Made by a program: the position numbers and the translations under genes. Below are positions 5,075-10,355 of a DNA stretch of 36,037 nucleotides, piece after piece (the first letter of the stretch is position 1; every line of letters begins with the position of its first letter). Origin of the DNA: Methylomonas sp. (GTDB taxonomy: Bacteria > Pseudomonadota > Gammaproteobacteria > Methylococcales > Methylomonadaceae); the NCBI GenBank assembly GCA_026989395.1, contig JALSJK010000001.1:1-36037 (forward strand), written 5' to 3'. The notes beneath the pieces are model-generated. The model was not told where the DNA came from and did no database searches. It worked only from the letters and a program-made list of their open reading frames with translations.

Positions 5075-5863
5075 TTAGGCTTCCAGCGGTGACTCCCGAA
5101 ATGTTACGTCAATAATAATATCAATCAGCTTGAGCACATCATCACTTTTTCTTGCATCGATTGGAACTACGGGCCATTGCATATCAAATTTTTTCATAAA
5201 TCGCTTATAGTCGGCAATATCATGTTTATTATTTACATCGAAATGGGTAATGCCAACAACGGCGTGATTAGATTGTAAAAATTCCTGGTTGTGGGTTAGA
5301 TAAAAATTCAAGTCTTCAAGCGGTGATTTTTGATTATTATTGATTAGTATGATCAAGCCGCTGGCACCTTCCGTTAAAATTGCCCCCATAAAACTGAATC
5401 TTTTTTGTCCTGGGGTGCCATATAAATGGATTTTGCTTTTTAACTGATGGTTATAAGTGCCATAATCCATCGAGGTGGTTGTCGTTTCTTTGAGCAAAGC
5501 GGTTTCGTCGGACGGTACGGTCTCTGTTGTGATGGGATCTGAGTCACTAATTGCACCGATTGCGGTGGTTTTGCCAGCACCAACACTTCCCGTGATAACC
5601 AGTTTTACTTGCGACGGAATTCTCACGTTATTATTTTTTTTTGTGGTTGTTTTGGGTGATTGTATAATTTTTTCTTGATAGTTTGCCGCTATTTCAGAGT
5701 TCTGAATTGCAGCAGGGACAAAAATCTTGGATTTTTGTTTGGTTTTGGGATGTTTGCGTTTCGCTTTAGCAGGCCTTTTTTTAGATTTAGTTTTCCTTGA
5801 TTCAGGCTGTTCATCTGTTTGCTTTTTTCGGAAAAAAGAGGTGAATTTGTTGAAAAAACTCAT
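5075..5863 (-). CDS. small Ras-like GTPase with N-terminal amphipathic/basic extension
   Basis: 262 aa, of which about residues 85-255 form a small GTPase domain: P-loop GSVGAGKTT (92-100), YGTPGQ (148-153) replacing the classical DxxG, THFD (206-209) as the specificity motif in place of NKxD, and PIDARK (234-239) as the G5-like loop. This matches the bacterial GTPase family of actinobacterial CvnD and relatives of MglA. Unlike its paralogue at 7281 it carries an 84-residue extension: an F/K-rich amphipathic start (MSFFNKFTSFFRKK) and a Lys/Arg-dense linker at 24-46, which could bind membrane or nucleic acid. It is convergent with the kinase gene and divergent from the TPR gene, whose 259-bp shared upstream region probably holds its promoter. 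The cellular role is unknown. Confidence 0.82.
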   Translation of the reverse strand: MSFFNKFTSFFRKKQTDEQPESRKTKSKKRPAKAKRKHPKTKQKSKIFVPAAIQNSEIAANYQEKIIQSPKTTTKKNNNVRIPSQVKLVITGSVGAGKTTAIGAISDSDPITTETVPSDETALLKETTTTSMDYGTYNHQLKSKIHLYGTPGQKRFSFMGAILTEGASGLIILINNNQKSPLEDLNFYLTHNQEFLQSNHAVVGITHFDVNNKHDIADYKRFMKKFDMQWPVVPIDARKSDDVLKLIDIIIDVTFRESPLEA

Positions 5864-6026
5864 GATGTTATAAAAAGAAATTCAATTAATATAAGACTTC
5901 TAATAGTGATACCCTGATGTCGCAAAACAATGGAACATTTTGCTCAAATGGTCGTCAAGTTATGATGTTTAGTATAGAATCATATGACCAATAGTTGCTT
6001 TTTTTACAAATCTTACCATTAAAAAG

Positions 6027-6042
6027 TGTGATCTGGTTCACA
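6027..6042 (+). promoter_or_regulatory. perfect CRP/Vfr-type binding site
   Basis: TGTGA-tctggt-TCACA, an exact match to the TGTGA-N6-TCACA core of CRP/Vfr sites, flanked by A-rich sequence on the left and AT-rich on the right. Its centre lies about 88 bp before the TPR gene start and about 170 bp before the GTPase start on the other strand, so it could serve either gene. No convincing -10 box was found at the classical class I or class II distance on the plus strand. Confidence 0.6.
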
Positions 6043-6122
6043 TAATTATTGTAGCAAATAGAAAAAGTGTAAATACAAACTATCTTTCCTTAAATATTAA
6101 TTAAGATTAACTGGTAAAGAAA

Positions 6123-6836
6123 ATGGCATTAAATTCTTCATTGTTAGTTACTGGAGAAAAGGCTGATGAAGAACAGGTTTTTTCTGATACAAGTTTTGTT
6201 TTCTCAAAGTATGATAAACATCAGTTTCCCCTGCATCATATTCTAGAGGATGAAGATATTCTGGATAATTTGGTTCATGAAATAACCAAAAGGCCAAAAA
6301 ATCTGATTACCCATATTCAGCGTATCAATTTTTGCTATAAACGGAATAGCTCAGAGCAGCTATTTGCGGCACTTTCTGATTTTTTTAGGGTTTTAGAGCA
6401 TAAAGGTATTGAGATTAGTCGCCGGATGTTTGCAGGTGTCAAAAATAAGTTAGCGCCTGATCGAGAAGAACAATTACGCCAATATTTAGATAATCGGGCT
6501 GAACTCACGGAAAATCAGTTCTGCGTTCTAGGGAAAGGCATCATAGGTACTGTTAATTTGGTCCAACAAATTTATTCAGCAGGAGAACAGGAACATGATC
6601 CGTTGGTATTGGCCCGTGATTATATTGAATATAGTCAATTGGATGAAGCTAAACGAGTTTTAGAAAAAGCAATCGTAGAAATTTCAAAAAGGGAAGCATT
6701 ACATGTTGAACTCTTGAGGCTTTACAAGGCAACAAAAGATATTAGCGGTTTTCATAAAATGTATGAAGCATTAAAAGCGCTTAATAATCCGATGCAGGAT
6801 GAATGGGATCGAATGAATGAATATTTTAAGGCCTGA
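6123..6836 (+). CDS. tetratricopeptide-like protein with FimV-type C-terminal segment
   Basis: 237 aa, no signal peptide or membrane segment, so cytoplasmic. The first 135 residues are mostly charged helix without a family I recognise (LEDEDILDNLVHEITKRPK, then FAALSDFFRVLEHKGIEISR). Residues about 165-230 carry a TPR-like unit (LARDYIEYSQLDEAKRVLEK, followed by ELLRLYKATKDISGFHKMYE) that resembles the repeat at the C-terminus of FimV, where LAKAYIDMGDAEAAKNIAEE occurs in this same window. A role as adaptor in polar or pilus organisation is an inference from that similarity and from the GTPase genes on both sides. A perfect CRP-type site lies upstream. The ribosome-binding site is weak (aaagaa). 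Confidence 0.75.
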   Translation: MALNSSLLVTGEKADEEQVFSDTSFVFSKYDKHQFPLHHILEDEDILDNLVHEITKRPKNLITHIQRINFCYKRNSSEQLFAALSDFFRVLEHKGIEISRRMFAGVKNKLAPDREEQLRQYLDNRAELTENQFCVLGKGIIGTVNLVQQIYSAGEQEHDPLVLARDYIEYSQLDEAKRVLEKAIVEISKREALHVELLRLYKATKDISGFHKMYEALKALNNPMQDEWDRMNEYFKA

Positions 6837-7042
6837 TTAAGTCTTATTTTTTTCTGTTAATTAAAGGTTTTTTTGTATTATTCTGGTTAGCTCCTTTGGC
6901 AATCCATCAGCTTTAGAATTTCTTCTTTAAATCCCCCAAAGGTACAGTGTAGCCTTATGCTAAATGCTGAAAAAGATTTTATAGGGTGAACTGATTGATG
7001 ATTTCTTCAGCATGAAGGTAATTTTTTTGCTTTCATTCTTTT

Positions 7043-7072
7043 TTTCAATAAGATTCAAACAACTTATTGAAA
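7043..7072. repeat. perfect 10-bp inverted repeat with 10-nt loop
   Basis: TTTCAATAAG at 7043-7052 and CTTATTGAAA at 7063-7072 are exact reverse complements around a 10-nt spacer. Neither side is followed by a T-run in the transcribed direction, so it is more like an operator or a structured leader than a terminator. Confidence 0.6.
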
Positions 7073-7100
7073 CCTTCATAACTTTAGCTACTATTGTAAA

Positions 7101-7151
7101 TATACCCAGAAAAATGTGAGGAATGATTCTCATCGGATATTTTTCTGTATA
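7101..7151. promoter_or_regulatory. imperfect dyad with Fur-box-like core
   Basis: CAGAAAAAT (7107-7115) and ATTTTTCTG (7139-7147) are exact reverse complements, with outer tatac/gtata extending the symmetry. The centre reads gaggaatgattctcatc, close to the gammaproteobacterial Fur consensus core GAATGATTCTC but with one extra G in the left half. It lies about 130 bp before the GTPase start. Function is unproven. Confidence 0.3.
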
Positions 7152-7280
7152 AGTATCTTGATAGAAAGTGAGTGTTTTTTATTTTGCAGCATTTTATGAT
7201 GTTGTTATTTTTAATATCCTCAATAAGATAAATTGTTCATAAATTAATCAAAAATTAATTGAGAAAAAATATAATTAATT

Positions 7281-7826
7281 ATGAGCCACAATAAAATCAT
7301 TTTTACTGGCCCGGTTGGCGCAGGGAAAACAACTGCTATTTCTGCGATTAGTGATGAAATACCCGTTACGACCGAGGCATTGGCAAGTGATTTTATTAAA
7401 TTAAAAAAACCCGAGACGACAGTGGCTATGGATTACGGTATCATTAGGGTTAACGGTGGTGAGAAAATTCATCTCTATGGAACGCCAGGGCAAGAACGTT
7501 TTGATTTTATGTGGGATATTTTGACGCATGGGGGGATTGGGTTAATTCTGTTGCTGGATAATACCCGAGCAGATCCTTTTATTGACATGAAGTTTTTTTT
7601 AAATACGTTTAATTCATTCATAAGAAGAACCAAGGTAGCTATTGGCGTCACACAAACTGACTTAAGCCAAACGCCAAGCATAGAATGTTACCGGGAACAA
7701 CTGGATAAGTTAGGGGTGAATTTCCCGGTTTTTTCAATTGATGCACGAAAAAAAAATGATGTTTCAATGCTAGTCCAATCATTGCTCTATTCTCTTGATC
7801 CTGTTTTTGAGGAAAACTATAAGTGA
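7281..7826 (+). CDS. small Ras-like GTPase, roadblock-associated
   Basis: 181 aa, a minimal GTPase domain with no extension. Motifs: P-loop GPVGAGKTT (10-18), switch I threonines about 46-47 followed by AMDYG, YGTPGQERF (66-74), TQTD (124-127) as the base-specificity motif and SIDARK (152-157). It is clearly paralogous to the GTPase at 5075-5863. Families of this type (MglA, CvnD, the so-called Rup groups) work with roadblock/LC7 proteins that act as regulators or GTPase-activating partners, and a roadblock-like protein is encoded directly downstream. The stop overlaps the next start as GTGA, implying translational coupling. The upstream region is long and AT-rich with dyads that may bind a regulator. 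Confidence 0.86.
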   Translation: MSHNKIIFTGPVGAGKTTAISAISDEIPVTTEALASDFIKLKKPETTVAMDYGIIRVNGGEKIHLYGTPGQERFDFMWDILTHGGIGLILLLDNTRADPFIDMKFFLNTFNSFIRRTKVAIGVTQTDLSQTPSIECYREQLDKLGVNFPVFSIDARKKNDVSMLVQSLLYSLDPVFEENYK

Positions 7827-8467
7827 GTCGATTTACATTAACCAAGGGTTTATATCTTTATCCCACGCCATCTGGCGCTTATCATGCTGTTTCACTGAAG
7901 GACAATGATAAATCAAGAGTTTTTTTGCGAGCAATATTGCAACAAAGGCAAACACCCGAGCTAAATATTGGCAACTTAAAAAGTCTTATGGACGAGAAGA
8001 GTGATGAGAAATGCATGGAGTTATTATTGCATTGCCAAAAGTTAGGATGGATTCAGGGGTTAACTGAGCGGCTAGAATATCCAAAGGGTCCTTTGGATGA
8101 AATTTTGCCGGATTTGTTAGATAAAGTTTCTGCAAGTGGCAAGGTCTTACTTGCTGATAGTCAGGGATTTTATTTGGCTTGTAATGGATTGGATCATGAA
8201 GTGGCTGAAGAATTATCTGCCTTAAGTGCTGATATAGCCACAGTGCATGAGCGTCGATCCGCTTTGTTAATGAATAATATGGGGTTGACGAGTCATGCCT
8301 GGTCGCTGGTTGATGCGGCCGGAAATTCCAATGTAGGGTTTTGGCCGTTATATATTGGCGACAATCGGTTTGTCATTTGTATTTGTGGCGTACCTTATTT
8401 TAATCGGCCAGAATTTGTGACGCTAATTTGGGCTTTAAGTATTCGTTACGCCCGAGATATGATGTAA
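7823..8467 (+). CDS. winged-helix/PqqD-like N-terminus fused to roadblock-like domain
   Basis: 214 aa with a GTG start that overlaps the GTPase stop by 4 bp. Residues about 1-80 look like a small winged-helix or PqqD-like unit: LTKGLYLYPTPSGAY, then helices ending in LLLHCQKLGWIQGL. Residues about 95-210 have the pattern of a roadblock/LC7 domain: DEILPDLLDKV, GKVLLADSQGFYLACNG, ELSALSADIATVHERRSA, WPLYIGDNRFVICICGV, and a final helix. A two-part protein of this kind could sense or dock to the GTPase, recalling the division of labour in conservon CvnB/CvnC, but here in one chain. Domain calls are by eye and the N-terminal one is the weaker. Confidence 0.68.
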   Translation: MSRFTLTKGLYLYPTPSGAYHAVSLKDNDKSRVFLRAILQQRQTPELNIGNLKSLMDEKSDEKCMELLLHCQKLGWIQGLTERLEYPKGPLDEILPDLLDKVSASGKVLLADSQGFYLACNGLDHEVAEELSALSADIATVHERRSALLMNNMGLTSHAWSLVDAAGNSNVGFWPLYIGDNRFVICICGVPYFNRPEFVTLIWALSIRYARDMM

Positions 8468-8604
8468 ATCATTTATCTACTTTTCTTCAATTTTTTCATA
8501 CTCAAAGCTTGATTGGAGAAGCATCCCCTAGCCCTTAAACAATTCTTTTTTCAGCTTTGCTTCTAATAGCAAAAAAATTCCTGTCAACTACACTAATACA
8601 TTGA

Positions 8605-8633
8605 TTCAAAGATAAAAATTATTTTTCTTTGAA
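8605..8633. repeat. AT-rich inverted repeat upstream of the roadblock gene
   Basis: TTCAAAGA and TCTTTGAA arms joined through complementary A and T runs give a near-perfect dyad with one bulged base. It lies immediately before a TTGACA box (8641-8646). It may act as an operator or as an AT-rich upstream element; as a terminator for the preceding gene it lacks a T-tail. Confidence 0.35.
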
Positions 8634-8640
8634 AAGTTTA

Positions 8641-8668
8641 TTGACATGTATGTGTCAGTTACTATTTC
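8641..8668 (+). promoter_or_regulatory. candidate promoter with overlapping dyad for the roadblock gene
   Basis: A consensus -35 box TTGACA (8641-8646) and a weak -10 candidate TATTTC (8663-8668, 16 bp spacing). The -35 box overlaps the symmetric pair TGACA-N6-TGTCA (8642-8657), a possible repressor site. The 223-bp gap and its own promoter suggest the roadblock-PAS genes can be expressed apart from the GTPase genes. Confidence 0.35.
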
Positions 8669-8690
8669 ATTATTTTCAAGGTGACCAAGA

Positions 8691-9053
8691 ATGCGCGAAG
8701 ATTTACTTAAATCAATTCTGCAAGAGTTAAGTGGCAGATCAGCTGATATTGAAGCGACTGGAGTTATTTCTACTGATGGATTAACAATGGCTGCAGTATT
8801 GCCAGAAGGAATGGATGAGGATAGAGTAGGGGCTATGAGTGCTGCAATGCTTTCGTTAGGAGATCGTACTTCCCAGGAACTAGCAAGAGGGGCTTTAGAT
8901 CAGGTGCTTATTCGTGGCAATAATGGCTATGTTTTGATGACTCATGCTGGAGACGAAGCCGTTTTGACGGTATTGGCAAGGCCGAATGCAAAACTGGGGC
9001 TTATATTTCTGGACGTAAAACGAGCAGCGGAGCAAATTGCAGAAATGATTTAA
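8691..9053 (+). CDS. roadblock/LC7 domain protein (MglB-like)
   Basis: 120 aa, a single complete roadblock/LC7 domain. Typical elements in order: first helix LLKSILQELSGRSADI, strand-turn EATGVISTDGLTMAAVLP, helix AMSAAMLSLGDRTSQEL, strands DQVLIRGNNGYVLMTHAG and AVLTVLARPNAKLGLIFLD, and last helix KRAAEQIAEMI. Such proteins form dimers and regulate small GTPases; in Myxococcus MglB is the GAP of MglA. Two GTPase genes nearby are the likely partners. A good ribosome-binding site (AAGGTGA) precedes the ATG. The PAS gene begins 13 bp after the stop, so the two are probably one transcript. Confidence 0.9.
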   Translation: MREDLLKSILQELSGRSADIEATGVISTDGLTMAAVLPEGMDEDRVGAMSAAMLSLGDRTSQELARGALDQVLIRGNNGYVLMTHAGDEAVLTVLARPNAKLGLIFLDVKRAAEQIAEMI

Positions 9054-9066
9054 TGAAAGAGGGGCC

Positions 9067-9543
9067 ATGCTAAAAGATATGAATCCTGACGATGTTGTTG
9101 GCGATTATGAAAAGTCTGTCTTAACACTGCATGGTAATATTAGAAGAACAGTTTTTTATACTGAACAGGAAATACCATACCCCGAAGGTAAATTGATTGT
9201 ATCCAGGACTGACTTGACGGGGGTCATAACGCATGTTAATTCATCTTTTGTAGAAATGTCTGGATATACAAAAGATGAATTAATTGGCGCCCCGCATTCG
9301 ATACTTCGGCATCCTGCCATGCCATCGGCAGCTTTCAAGGATTTATGGGATACCATTCGCAACCAGTGTAAATGGCAAGGATATGTCAAAAATTTACGAA
9401 AAGATGGCGCTTACTATTGGGTAAAAGCTGTAGTAATTCCTAATATCAGAAATGGAGAGGTTGTTGGATATACTTCGGTCAGGAGAAAGCCTTCAAGAAA
9501 AAAAATTGAGCAGAGTATTGATCTGTACTCAACGCTCGAATAA
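9067..9543 (+). CDS. stand-alone Aer-type PAS sensor protein
   Basis: 158 aa, one PAS domain at about residues 45-140 that closely follows the FAD-binding PAS of the E. coli aerotaxis receptor Aer: RTDLTGVITHVNSSFVEMSG, then SILRHPAMP, KDLW, KWQGYVKNLRKDGAYYWV. Residues matching Aer Arg57, His58, Trp70 and Trp79 are present (Arg81, His82, Trp94, Trp103), while Aer Asp60 is replaced by Ala84. There is no HAMP, membrane or methyl-accepting domain, so output must go through another protein, plausibly the roadblock/GTPase pair. A redox or oxygen sensor bound to FAD is likely by family but not shown. An AAAGAGG ribosome-binding site precedes the ATG. Confidence 0.85.
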   Translation: MLKDMNPDDVVGDYEKSVLTLHGNIRRTVFYTEQEIPYPEGKLIVSRTDLTGVITHVNSSFVEMSGYTKDELIGAPHSILRHPAMPSAAFKDLWDTIRNQCKWQGYVKNLRKDGAYYWVKAVVIPNIRNGEVVGYTSVRRKPSRKKIEQSIDLYSTLE

Positions 9544-9608
9544 ACACTAATTTTTTTTGAAATTACCGGTAGGGTTGCTGTAAAGTTAGTCAATGAGGTA
9601 TCAGCCAA

Positions 9609-10355
9609 ATGACTAATTATTTTACTATCAGCCCAGATTTTTCCCCAGACCATCTTTCTGGATGGTACATTTTTAATACATGGTTGCAAAAAATCACCAA
9701 TGAACCAATTCGTTTGGTATTTTATGACAATTTTGAATTGCAACGTGAGGCGATTGAAAATGATTGCATAGATTTGATTTATGCAAATCCTTTTGATGCG
9801 GCTATGCTGGTTCGGCATAAAGGGTTTAAACCTTTGGTCAAACCCGATGGTTATTCTGACGAAGCCATTATCGCTGTTCATACGAGCAGCAAGTATAAAC
9901 AAATCATCGATCTACAACCTGGTTCTAGTATCGCAACAACAGATGACCCTGACATATTCATGATGGGGTTGATCCTGATGGAACCAGCAGAGCTTGATAA
10001 GTCTAATGTTGAATTGATTGCTTGTGAAAATTACATCCTGGTTGCCAAACAATTAATTCAGGGCTCTGCAAATGCAGGGATTTTTTTTGCAGAAGCGTAT
10101 GATGATTTGTCTAATATGGTGAAAAAACAGTTGCGGATTTTAGTGCGTAGTCAAATTGACATCATCCATCATTCATTAATGATTGGCCCAAAATTATTGG
10201 AAAAGCACCGGTTATTCCAAGAAGCATTGCTTGAAATGGCAGGTAATGAGAAAGGTAAAGCTGTTTTAGAAAGTTTGGGTTTTGATCGATGGCAGATTGT
10301 AAATGAAGAGGAAATGGAATTTATGATTGACTTAATGGATACATTATCAAGCTAA
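9609..10355 (+). CDS. PhnD-like periplasmic-binding-fold protein lacking a signal peptide
   Basis: 248 aa, resembling the phosphate/phosphite/phosphonate-binding (PhnD/type-2 binding protein) fold: early strand TISPDFSPDHL, then LVFYDNFELQREAIENDCIDLIYANPFDAAMLV, a typical 'gene product spans both lobes' layout, GSSIATTDDPDIFMMGL, and NAGIFFAEAYDDL. Normal PhnD proteins are exported, but this one starts directly with MTNYFTISPDF and has no signal sequence or lipobox, and no transporter permease or ATPase lies next to it. A cytoplasmic ligand sensor is therefore more likely than a transporter part. It follows the PAS gene by 65 bp on the same strand and may belong to that operon. A GAGG precedes the ATG at 10 bp. 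Confidence 0.75.
   Translation: MTNYFTISPDFSPDHLSGWYIFNTWLQKITNEPIRLVFYDNFELQREAIENDCIDLIYANPFDAAMLVRHKGFKPLVKPDGYSDEAIIAVHTSSKYKQIIDLQPGSSIATTDDPDIFMMGLILMEPAELDKSNVELIACENYILVAKQLIQGSANAGIFFAEAYDDLSNMVKKQLRILVRSQIDIIHHSLMIGPKLLEKHRLFQEALLEMAGNEKGKAVLESLGFDRWQIVNEEEMEFMIDLMDTLSS

Follow-up and report, generated by a model that had tools for sequence, protein, structure and literature searches.

The 36,037-nucleotide stretch of Methylomonas sp. DNA analyzed here (contig JALSJK010000001.1 of assembly GCA_026989395.1; hereafter, the window) carries, at positions 5075-10355, a compact set of genes built around a Ras-like GTPase and two roadblock proteins. Rather than representing a novel type of system, this locus belongs, in derived form, to the Group 3 MglA system of beta- and gammaproteobacteria, as described in the main text of PMC4316618. 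It is considered a variant rather than a standard member because the regulator which that text calls 'typically' present, a receiver/winged-helix protein, is absent. Genes for PAS, PhnD-like and tetratricopeptide repeat (TPR) proteins extend the Group 3 locus beyond that main text. Further new aspects are the loss of the typical Group 3 regulator in this lineage with the remaining six genes being maintained, the separate lineage of the second GTPase, fusions of the regulator's receiver-like domain to PilZ or to a Wzz-like membrane part, and protoglobin genes in some of the other loci. All seven open reading frames (ORFs) that an earlier, sequence-only reading had reported within 5.3 kb appear in the ORF list of the window, are real and lie where that reading placed them. 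The same reading recognized only MglA/MglB and the actinobacterial conservons as relatives, whereas the closest relative is Group 3 MglA, and the novelty it claimed was too strong, as the locus belongs to this published kind.

Loss of the regulator and maintenance of the remaining genes

In relatives, a protein of ~400 amino acids is encoded between the genes for the TPR protein and the GTPase. By its place, length and layout, this protein fits the 'protein of unknown function' that PMC4316618 describes for Group 3, which has a receiver-like N-terminus, a variable linker and a winged-helix C-terminus. The regulator is found in 69 of 70 other loci that contain both the TPR protein and the GTPase. 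The sole exception is L092, the locus of G001, which is the nearest relative and belongs to the same genus. The regulator is retained in G002 (locus L074), the remaining one of the three genomes of the genus, while one further locus (L166) is without both regulator and GTPase.

In the window, the site of the regulator gene is occupied by an AT-rich intergenic stretch of 444 bp (6837..7280), in which no remnant of the regulator was detected (best tblastn E-value, 0.23). The whole regulator is absent from the window and from the genome to which it belongs (G000, completeness 98.14%), where the receiver-like domain survives only in a different protein, and the C-terminal half of the regulator is likewise absent from this genome (best E-value, 0.139). 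Relocation of the gene within the genome was thus rejected. The same arrangement is seen in G001, where an alignment of 712 bases, reaching into the ends of the two adjacent genes, shows 78% identity; an assembly error is therefore unlikely.

To describe selection on the remaining genes, the ratio of nonsynonymous to synonymous substitution rates (dN/dS) was calculated by the Nei-Gojobori method for the window against G001, both species being without the regulator; comparisons with G002 were left out, as these were mostly saturated at silent sites. The ratios were 0.009 for the TPR protein (from partial sequence and near saturation), 0.055 for the GTPase, 0.036 for the winged-helix/roadblock protein, 0.020 for the roadblock protein, 0.079 for the PAS protein and 0.064 for the PhnD-like protein. 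Such strong purifying selection on all six genes indicates that the switch was kept without its regulator. One could instead suppose that the switch acted mainly on transcription through the receiver/winged-helix protein and that the window locus is a decaying remnant left after its loss. On account of the winged-helix domain, PMC4316618 indeed proposes that Group 3 systems regulate genes, and the near-constant presence of the regulator in other loci, along with its absence from the whole genome here, would agree with this. Decay is, however, at odds with the low ratios obtained although the regulator is missing from both species compared, and with the 97% and 98% identity of their TPR and roadblock proteins, respectively, and we consider this explanation quite improbable.

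A Group 3 GTPase coupled to two roadblock proteins

The GTPase of the conserved locus, G2 (7281..7826, plus strand, 181 amino acids), was assigned to the Group 3 MglA type by its motifs (GPVGAGKTTA, TTVAMD, GTPGQ, TQTD and DAR) and by its match to MglA in the structure database (3t12, E-value 1.1e-4), although some Rab proteins scored slightly better. A second Ras-like GTPase, G1 (5075..5863, minus strand, 262 amino acids), presents the motifs GSVGAGKTTA, TTTSMD, GTPGQ, THFD and DAR. Both match P-loop GTPase models in Pfam, and both carry the Group 3 signature, with Thr in place of Arg in the G2 motif, GTPGQ, a G4 motif without Lys, and DAR. This agrees with the description in PMC4316618 of Group 3 proteins, which lack the Arg in the G2 motif, have GTPGQ, an atypical G4 motif and DAR, and occur with one or two coupled roadblock proteins in the same group of hosts; GTPGQ and DAR are there common to Groups 2 and 3. 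The Group 1 signature (Myxococcus, Thermus), i.e. an Arg finger in the G2 motif and TVPGQ, was found in neither GTPase of the window. In a tree built without members of other MglA groups, G2 clusters with the operon GTPases of relatives and with a Neisseria homologue; Group 3 MglA was also reported from Neisseria, Stenotrophomonas and Xanthomonas (PMC4316618). A Neisseria gonorrhoeae record (L031, NZ_CP119142.1), filed as a plasmid, is evidently a chromosome by its size of 2.17 Mb, and its GTPase homologue is split across two overlapping frames.

Two coupled roadblock/MglB genes directly follow that of G2. The first, of MglB-1 type (7823..8467, plus strand), overlaps the G2 gene by 4 bases and encodes a protein of 214 amino acids, the assignment of which is based on a model, a fold match and an alignment. 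Pfam gave a weak Robl match (E-value 0.065). In an AlphaFold2 model built from 55 sequences (predicted local distance difference test score, pLDDT, 90.5; predicted TM-score, pTM, 0.86), residues 88-211 adopt the roadblock fold, with Z-scores of 11.6 to 3kye (root-mean-square deviation of 3.1 over 109 residues) and 11.0 to Myxococcus MglB (6hjm). Of the winged-helix/roadblock-like description given earlier, the roadblock part is thereby supported, while the N-terminus appears helical and winged-helix-like in the model, as judged from secondary structure only. The second protein, of MglB-2 type (8691..9053, plus strand, 120 amino acids), is a clear Robl_LC7 member (Pfam E-value 4.7e-17). Its five matches among solved structures are three roadblock proteins (from Asgard archaea by their titles), CvnB5 (3leq, E-value 1.5e-10) and Rv3364c; MglB is not among these five. 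An orphan copy of this roadblock gene, 79% identical, is found elsewhere in the genome (G000:C96:5201-5557). The genome also holds a third GTPase (L241:7023-9924, G000:C65), the C-terminal extension of which resembles a roadblock on visual inspection but gave no roadblock match in Pfam. This GTPase is followed by a 220-amino-acid protein and a dCache-HAMP membrane protein.

Among the papers listed by our searches, we recognized two as treating Group 3 loci, PMC4316618 and PMC11112851. In the first, the system comprises one or two MglB genes and the receiver/winged-helix protein, the latter being the published output candidate. The terms TPR, PAS domain, PhnD and globin are not found in its main text, although its supplementary tables may list such genes. 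In the second, the mgl operon of Snodgrassella resembles the window locus in having a Group 3 GTPase with two coupled mglB genes, and there is one orphan mglB, as there is an orphan copy in the window genome; the main text contains none of the terms tetratricopeptide, PhnD, PAS domain and globin. The mutant described in that study lies in the orphan mglB. More distant is the MglA/MglB/SgmX system of Myxococcus xanthus (PMC7519303), with which the window shares a Ras-like GTPase, a roadblock GTPase-activating protein (GAP) and a TPR protein. This likeness is one of how the parts work; Myxococcus MglA is a Group 1 GTPase with an intrinsic Arg finger and TVPGQ (PMC4316618). The actinobacterial conservons (Cvn) also pair a GTPase with a roadblock partner, the window roadblock protein matching CvnB5, but contain the histidine kinase CvnA, whereas the Pfam scan found no kinase family among the seven window proteins.

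Conservation of the locus and its candidate inputs

To compare gene neighbourhoods, a profile of the winged-helix/roadblock protein was searched against the genome collection, and the best, i.e. closest, 80 of 190 confirmed places were taken as order loci. Of these, 76 bear methanotroph or Methylococcales names and four (L119, L132, L146 and L158) are filed under broader ones. Genes were counted as present above 60 bits, and it should be noted that some contigs end inside the locus. The winged-helix/roadblock protein was found in all 80 loci, the GTPase in 78, the roadblock protein in 77, the regulator in 76, and the TPR, PAS and PhnD-like proteins in 71 each. The TPR protein and the GTPase occur together in 70 of the 80, and where at least 2.5 kb is available downstream of the roadblock gene, 65 of 68 loci hold both PAS and PhnD-like genes, so that the grouping is not due to chance. 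The conserved order is TPR, regulator, GTPase, winged-helix/roadblock, roadblock, PAS and PhnD-like, and the locus of Methylomonas sp. LW13 (L126), a non-pathogenic methanotroph, has all of these genes. The flanks vary, as no ORF family found within 4.5 kb of the locus (single linkage, both strands) appears in more than 18 of the 66 loci that hold both TPR and PhnD-like genes. The six genes of the window are hence a conserved Methylococcales locus with varying flanks, and the grouping noticed from the sequence alone has proved to be a unit whose genes are kept together rather than scattered. A scan for promoters and terminators gave counts (20 against 21.2, and 3 against 4.3, in shuffles) that do not exceed the shuffles and is uninformative.

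Across the class, 41 of 369 genomes hold a winged-helix/roadblock match. From 37 of these, 40 loci were compared (G000, G011, G375 and G399 were left out, and not every second match was fetched). The roadblock protein was found in 35, the regulator and the TPR protein in 31 each, the GTPase in 29, and the PAS and PhnD-like proteins in 12 each. The core thus extends beyond Methylococcales into other gammaproteobacterial families. In three loci (L205, L206 and L208), what appears as a reduced variant has the TPR and winged-helix/roadblock genes adjoining, and the stretch gave no sign of a regulator, a GTPase or a roadblock partner.

The PAS protein (9067..9543, plus strand, 158 amino acids) matches PAS_3 (Pfam E-value 1.3e-15), with no other domain found, and its best solved match is Aer (8dik, E-value 3.9e-35), in support of the Aer-type label first given to it. 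The Aer receptor combines its PAS domain with a membrane anchor, HAMP and a chemoreceptor domain, whereas the window protein consists of PAS alone and has an altered RHPDM motif. The PhnD-like protein (9609..10355, plus strand, 248 amino acids) matches Phosphonate-bd (Pfam E-value 3.5e-36). Transport-related PhnD binding proteins are exported via a signal peptide or lipobox. Here, the ORF has its first start codon a few residues ahead of the initial conserved motif (MTNYFTISPDF), leaving no room for a signal peptide, and the motif is found in 66 of 68 relatives scored, each with a Met no more than nine residues before it; the cytoplasmic location proposed earlier is thus upheld. A sequence search of this protein against solved structures gave one match, to TALE protein repeats, which was taken as chance. 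PhnD-like domains with an N-terminal extension lie beside or inside the locus in L062, L067 and L255, and in L067, which was scanned with Pfam, the extension is STAS.

A further candidate input is protoglobin, the gene of which is found between the pair of roadblock genes or closely behind the second one in 13 of 120 other loci, namely seven of the 80 order loci (L097, L098, L099, L107, L122, L137 and L154) and six of the 40 class loci (L177, L181, L182, L187, L188 and L195). Three weak matches (L200, L202 and L207) were left out of this count, and four of the 13 were confirmed with Pfam, the same four having seeded the search profile. Protoglobin also adjoins three (G030, G047 and G057) of five near-identical orphan roadblock genes (78-81% identity where listed). 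The window genome itself gave no protoglobin match. Among our results, this recurrence of a haem-type sensor speaks most for oxygen or redox as an input, although it reflects co-location only.

The PAS and PhnD-like genes could also be an independent sensory operon that merely adjoins the GTPase/roadblock operon. They do travel together, with equal counts of 71 and 71 in the 80 order loci and 12 and 12 in the 40 class loci, and in the class, they accompany the core in only 11 of the 27 loci with enough downstream sequence. On the other hand, their retention in nearly all order loci despite varying flanks, together with L165, where a second PAS-PhnD pair immediately precedes a further regulator-GTPase combination made up of a diverged regulator and a GTPase of G1 type, makes such independence unlikely. 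Input by both proteins into the GTPase/roadblock core, as proposed for the maintained switch, is plausible.

G1 is transcribed divergently from the other six genes and carries a basic N-terminal extension of ~80 amino acids. It is found in three of the 80 order loci and adjoins the module in G000, G002 and G004, while in G001, a 97% identical fragment lies at a contig end. In the tree, it falls within a clade of 14 rows (support 100/99), apart from the operon GTPases, which form a clade of 33, and a recent duplication of the two GTPases was therefore rejected. Seven of 11 other members of the G1 clade (L165, L244, L245, L247, L249, L251 and L254) lie directly beside a diverged regulator-like protein; these matches range from 21 to 78 bits, and several extend over no more than a portion of the regulator. 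One member (L248) is fused to an N-terminal domain, and for three (L246, L250 and L252), no regulator-like neighbour was seen. The separate clade and such neighbours indicate that G1 comes from a sister system and is not a copy of G2. A search of the window genome for a diverged G1-type regulator gave no match, which, with one query, shows little.

Proposed pilus output and fusions of the receiver-like domain

The TPR protein (6123..6836, plus strand, 237 amino acids) has no leader by eye, and its model shows two helical parts joined by a flexible linker (pLDDT 83.8, pTM 0.49). TPR_19 is matched in 22 of 54 family members, the window protein giving an E-value of 0.064. Searched against the whole genome, the family profile finds, besides the protein itself, FimV alone, which is encoded in the same window (E-value 2.4e-9); the homology spans ~80 residues at profile positions 146-225, corresponding to the C-terminus of the window protein. 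The two-part helical model, the weak Pfam matches and this link to FimV together sustain the FimV-like TPR label assigned from sequence. FimV is composed of LysM, a membrane span and a TPR domain, and the TPR part alone is common to the two proteins. In G002, the TPR ORF (L074:4770-5237) has 156 codons as compared to 237 in the window, and may lack its FimV-like half or carry it in another frame.

We propose that the locus encodes a cytoplasmic Group 3 MglA-type GTPase switch with roadblock partners, PAS and PhnD-like inputs and TPR-mediated output to the pilus, a reading that we regard as evenly balanced between right and wrong. G2 would cycle between its GTP and GDP forms, and the roadblock pair, by comparison with MglA/MglB, would act on it as a GAP or docking partner. 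PAS, PhnD-like and, elsewhere, protoglobin proteins may feed redox, gas or ligand state into this core, as their co-location would suggest. Among the remaining parts, the FimV-like TPR protein is the likeliest effector and could pass the GTP state on to the polar FimV/type IV pilus apparatus, in analogy to Myxococcus, where MglA-GTP binds the TPR protein SgmX and thereby stimulates pili (PMC7519303). In relatives, the receiver-linker-winged-helix protein would be a second, probably transcriptional, output, which was lost in this lineage with the switch being kept. Every direction of signal flow, as well as the pilus output, is what we infer from these comparisons; pili as the target of TPR output are plausible. 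Besides the FimV homology, indirect support comes from a point mutation in an orphan mglB of a Group 3 species, which goes along with soft-agar flares, read by its authors as altered type IV pilus-dependent motility (PMC11112851), and from pilM, which exceeds the cut-off in 39 of the 41 winged-helix/roadblock genomes (table read by E-value), as compared to 272 of all 369 class genomes.

Several observations weigh against this reading and should be considered. The co-occurrence with pilM (Fisher p = 2.5e-4) is uncorrected for relatedness and genome size, two of the winged-helix/roadblock genomes (G364 and G375) are without a strong pilM match, and one of the 41 (G399) enters by a marginal winged-helix/roadblock match (E-value 3e-4). 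Solved TPR structures match the TPR protein with Z-scores of up to 10.6 over 85 residues, a level common among helical repeats. As to the inputs, PAS and PhnD-like genes are missing from 16 of the 27 class loci and are thus a common accessory pair rather than part of the core. The PAS protein of the window reads RHPAM, with Ala in place of an acidic residue that is conserved in 104 of 111 PAS ORFs (RHPDM; some genomes are counted twice). We take this residue to matter for flavin adenine dinucleotide binding in Aer, such that the window protein may bind no flavin; a search on residue D60 of Aer gave no result. The orphan roadblock copies of G000 and G002 have no protoglobin neighbour, and the same holds for the stretches that surround ten diverged roadblock copies (L042-L046 and L075-L079) and the split loci L070 and L072. 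Finally, a Pfam scan of the regulator from the relative L059 gave no family, so that its receiver/winged-helix identity is founded on the Phyre2 result of PMC4316618, its position between the neighbouring genes and its layout, and loss of the regulator could also mean a changed function.

The receiver-like domain also occurs in other proteins. A profile of 24 sequences, searched against the 369 class genomes with E-values up to 1e-5, matched 53 of them, including 38 of the 41 with a winged-helix/roadblock match (the remaining three, G358, G369 and G399, gave no match at this cut-off) and 15 without one, with E-values below 1e-13 in G236, G273 and G414. In the window genome, its sole remaining match is L081:7569-9548 (G000:C105), where the domain is followed by a long linker and a transmembrane Wzz-like part, the latter scoring 21.0 bits for GNVR, below the Pfam cut-off of 27.7. 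This protein could have stepped in for the lost regulator, with surface polysaccharide length or export as the output. In two other genomes, the same domain is fused to PilZ, in three proteins altogether (L232:4219-5391, minus strand, and L233:2490-3863, both of G004, and L234:3373-4260 of G045; 30.8, 33.3 and 27.8 bits, respectively, cut-off 22.5), which lends this idea some support. G002, however, has both the regulator and a relative of the receiver-Wzz protein, so that the fusion did not arise with the regulator loss, and no polysaccharide cluster is evident by eye among the ORFs around the L081 gene. Such a takeover is, in our view, improbable. A broader and tentative possibility, which we would still bet against, is that the receiver-like domain is a portable docking domain for the GTPase/roadblock core, and that lineages exchange outputs by joining it to a winged helix, to PilZ or to a Wzz-like copolymerase. 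On this view, the window would show a switch that has shed its transcriptional output and that takes its input from sensors of oxygen/redox and of ligands (PAS, protoglobin and PhnD-like).

These results place Group 3 MglA systems in methanotrophs. We found no described inputs for such systems, and the conserved PAS, protoglobin and PhnD-like neighbours now provide a concrete candidate input side, sensing oxygen, redox state or a ligand. A species that has lost the regulator and kept the switch is, moreover, a natural experiment, and suggests that the GTPase/roadblock core has a role independent of the winged-helix protein.

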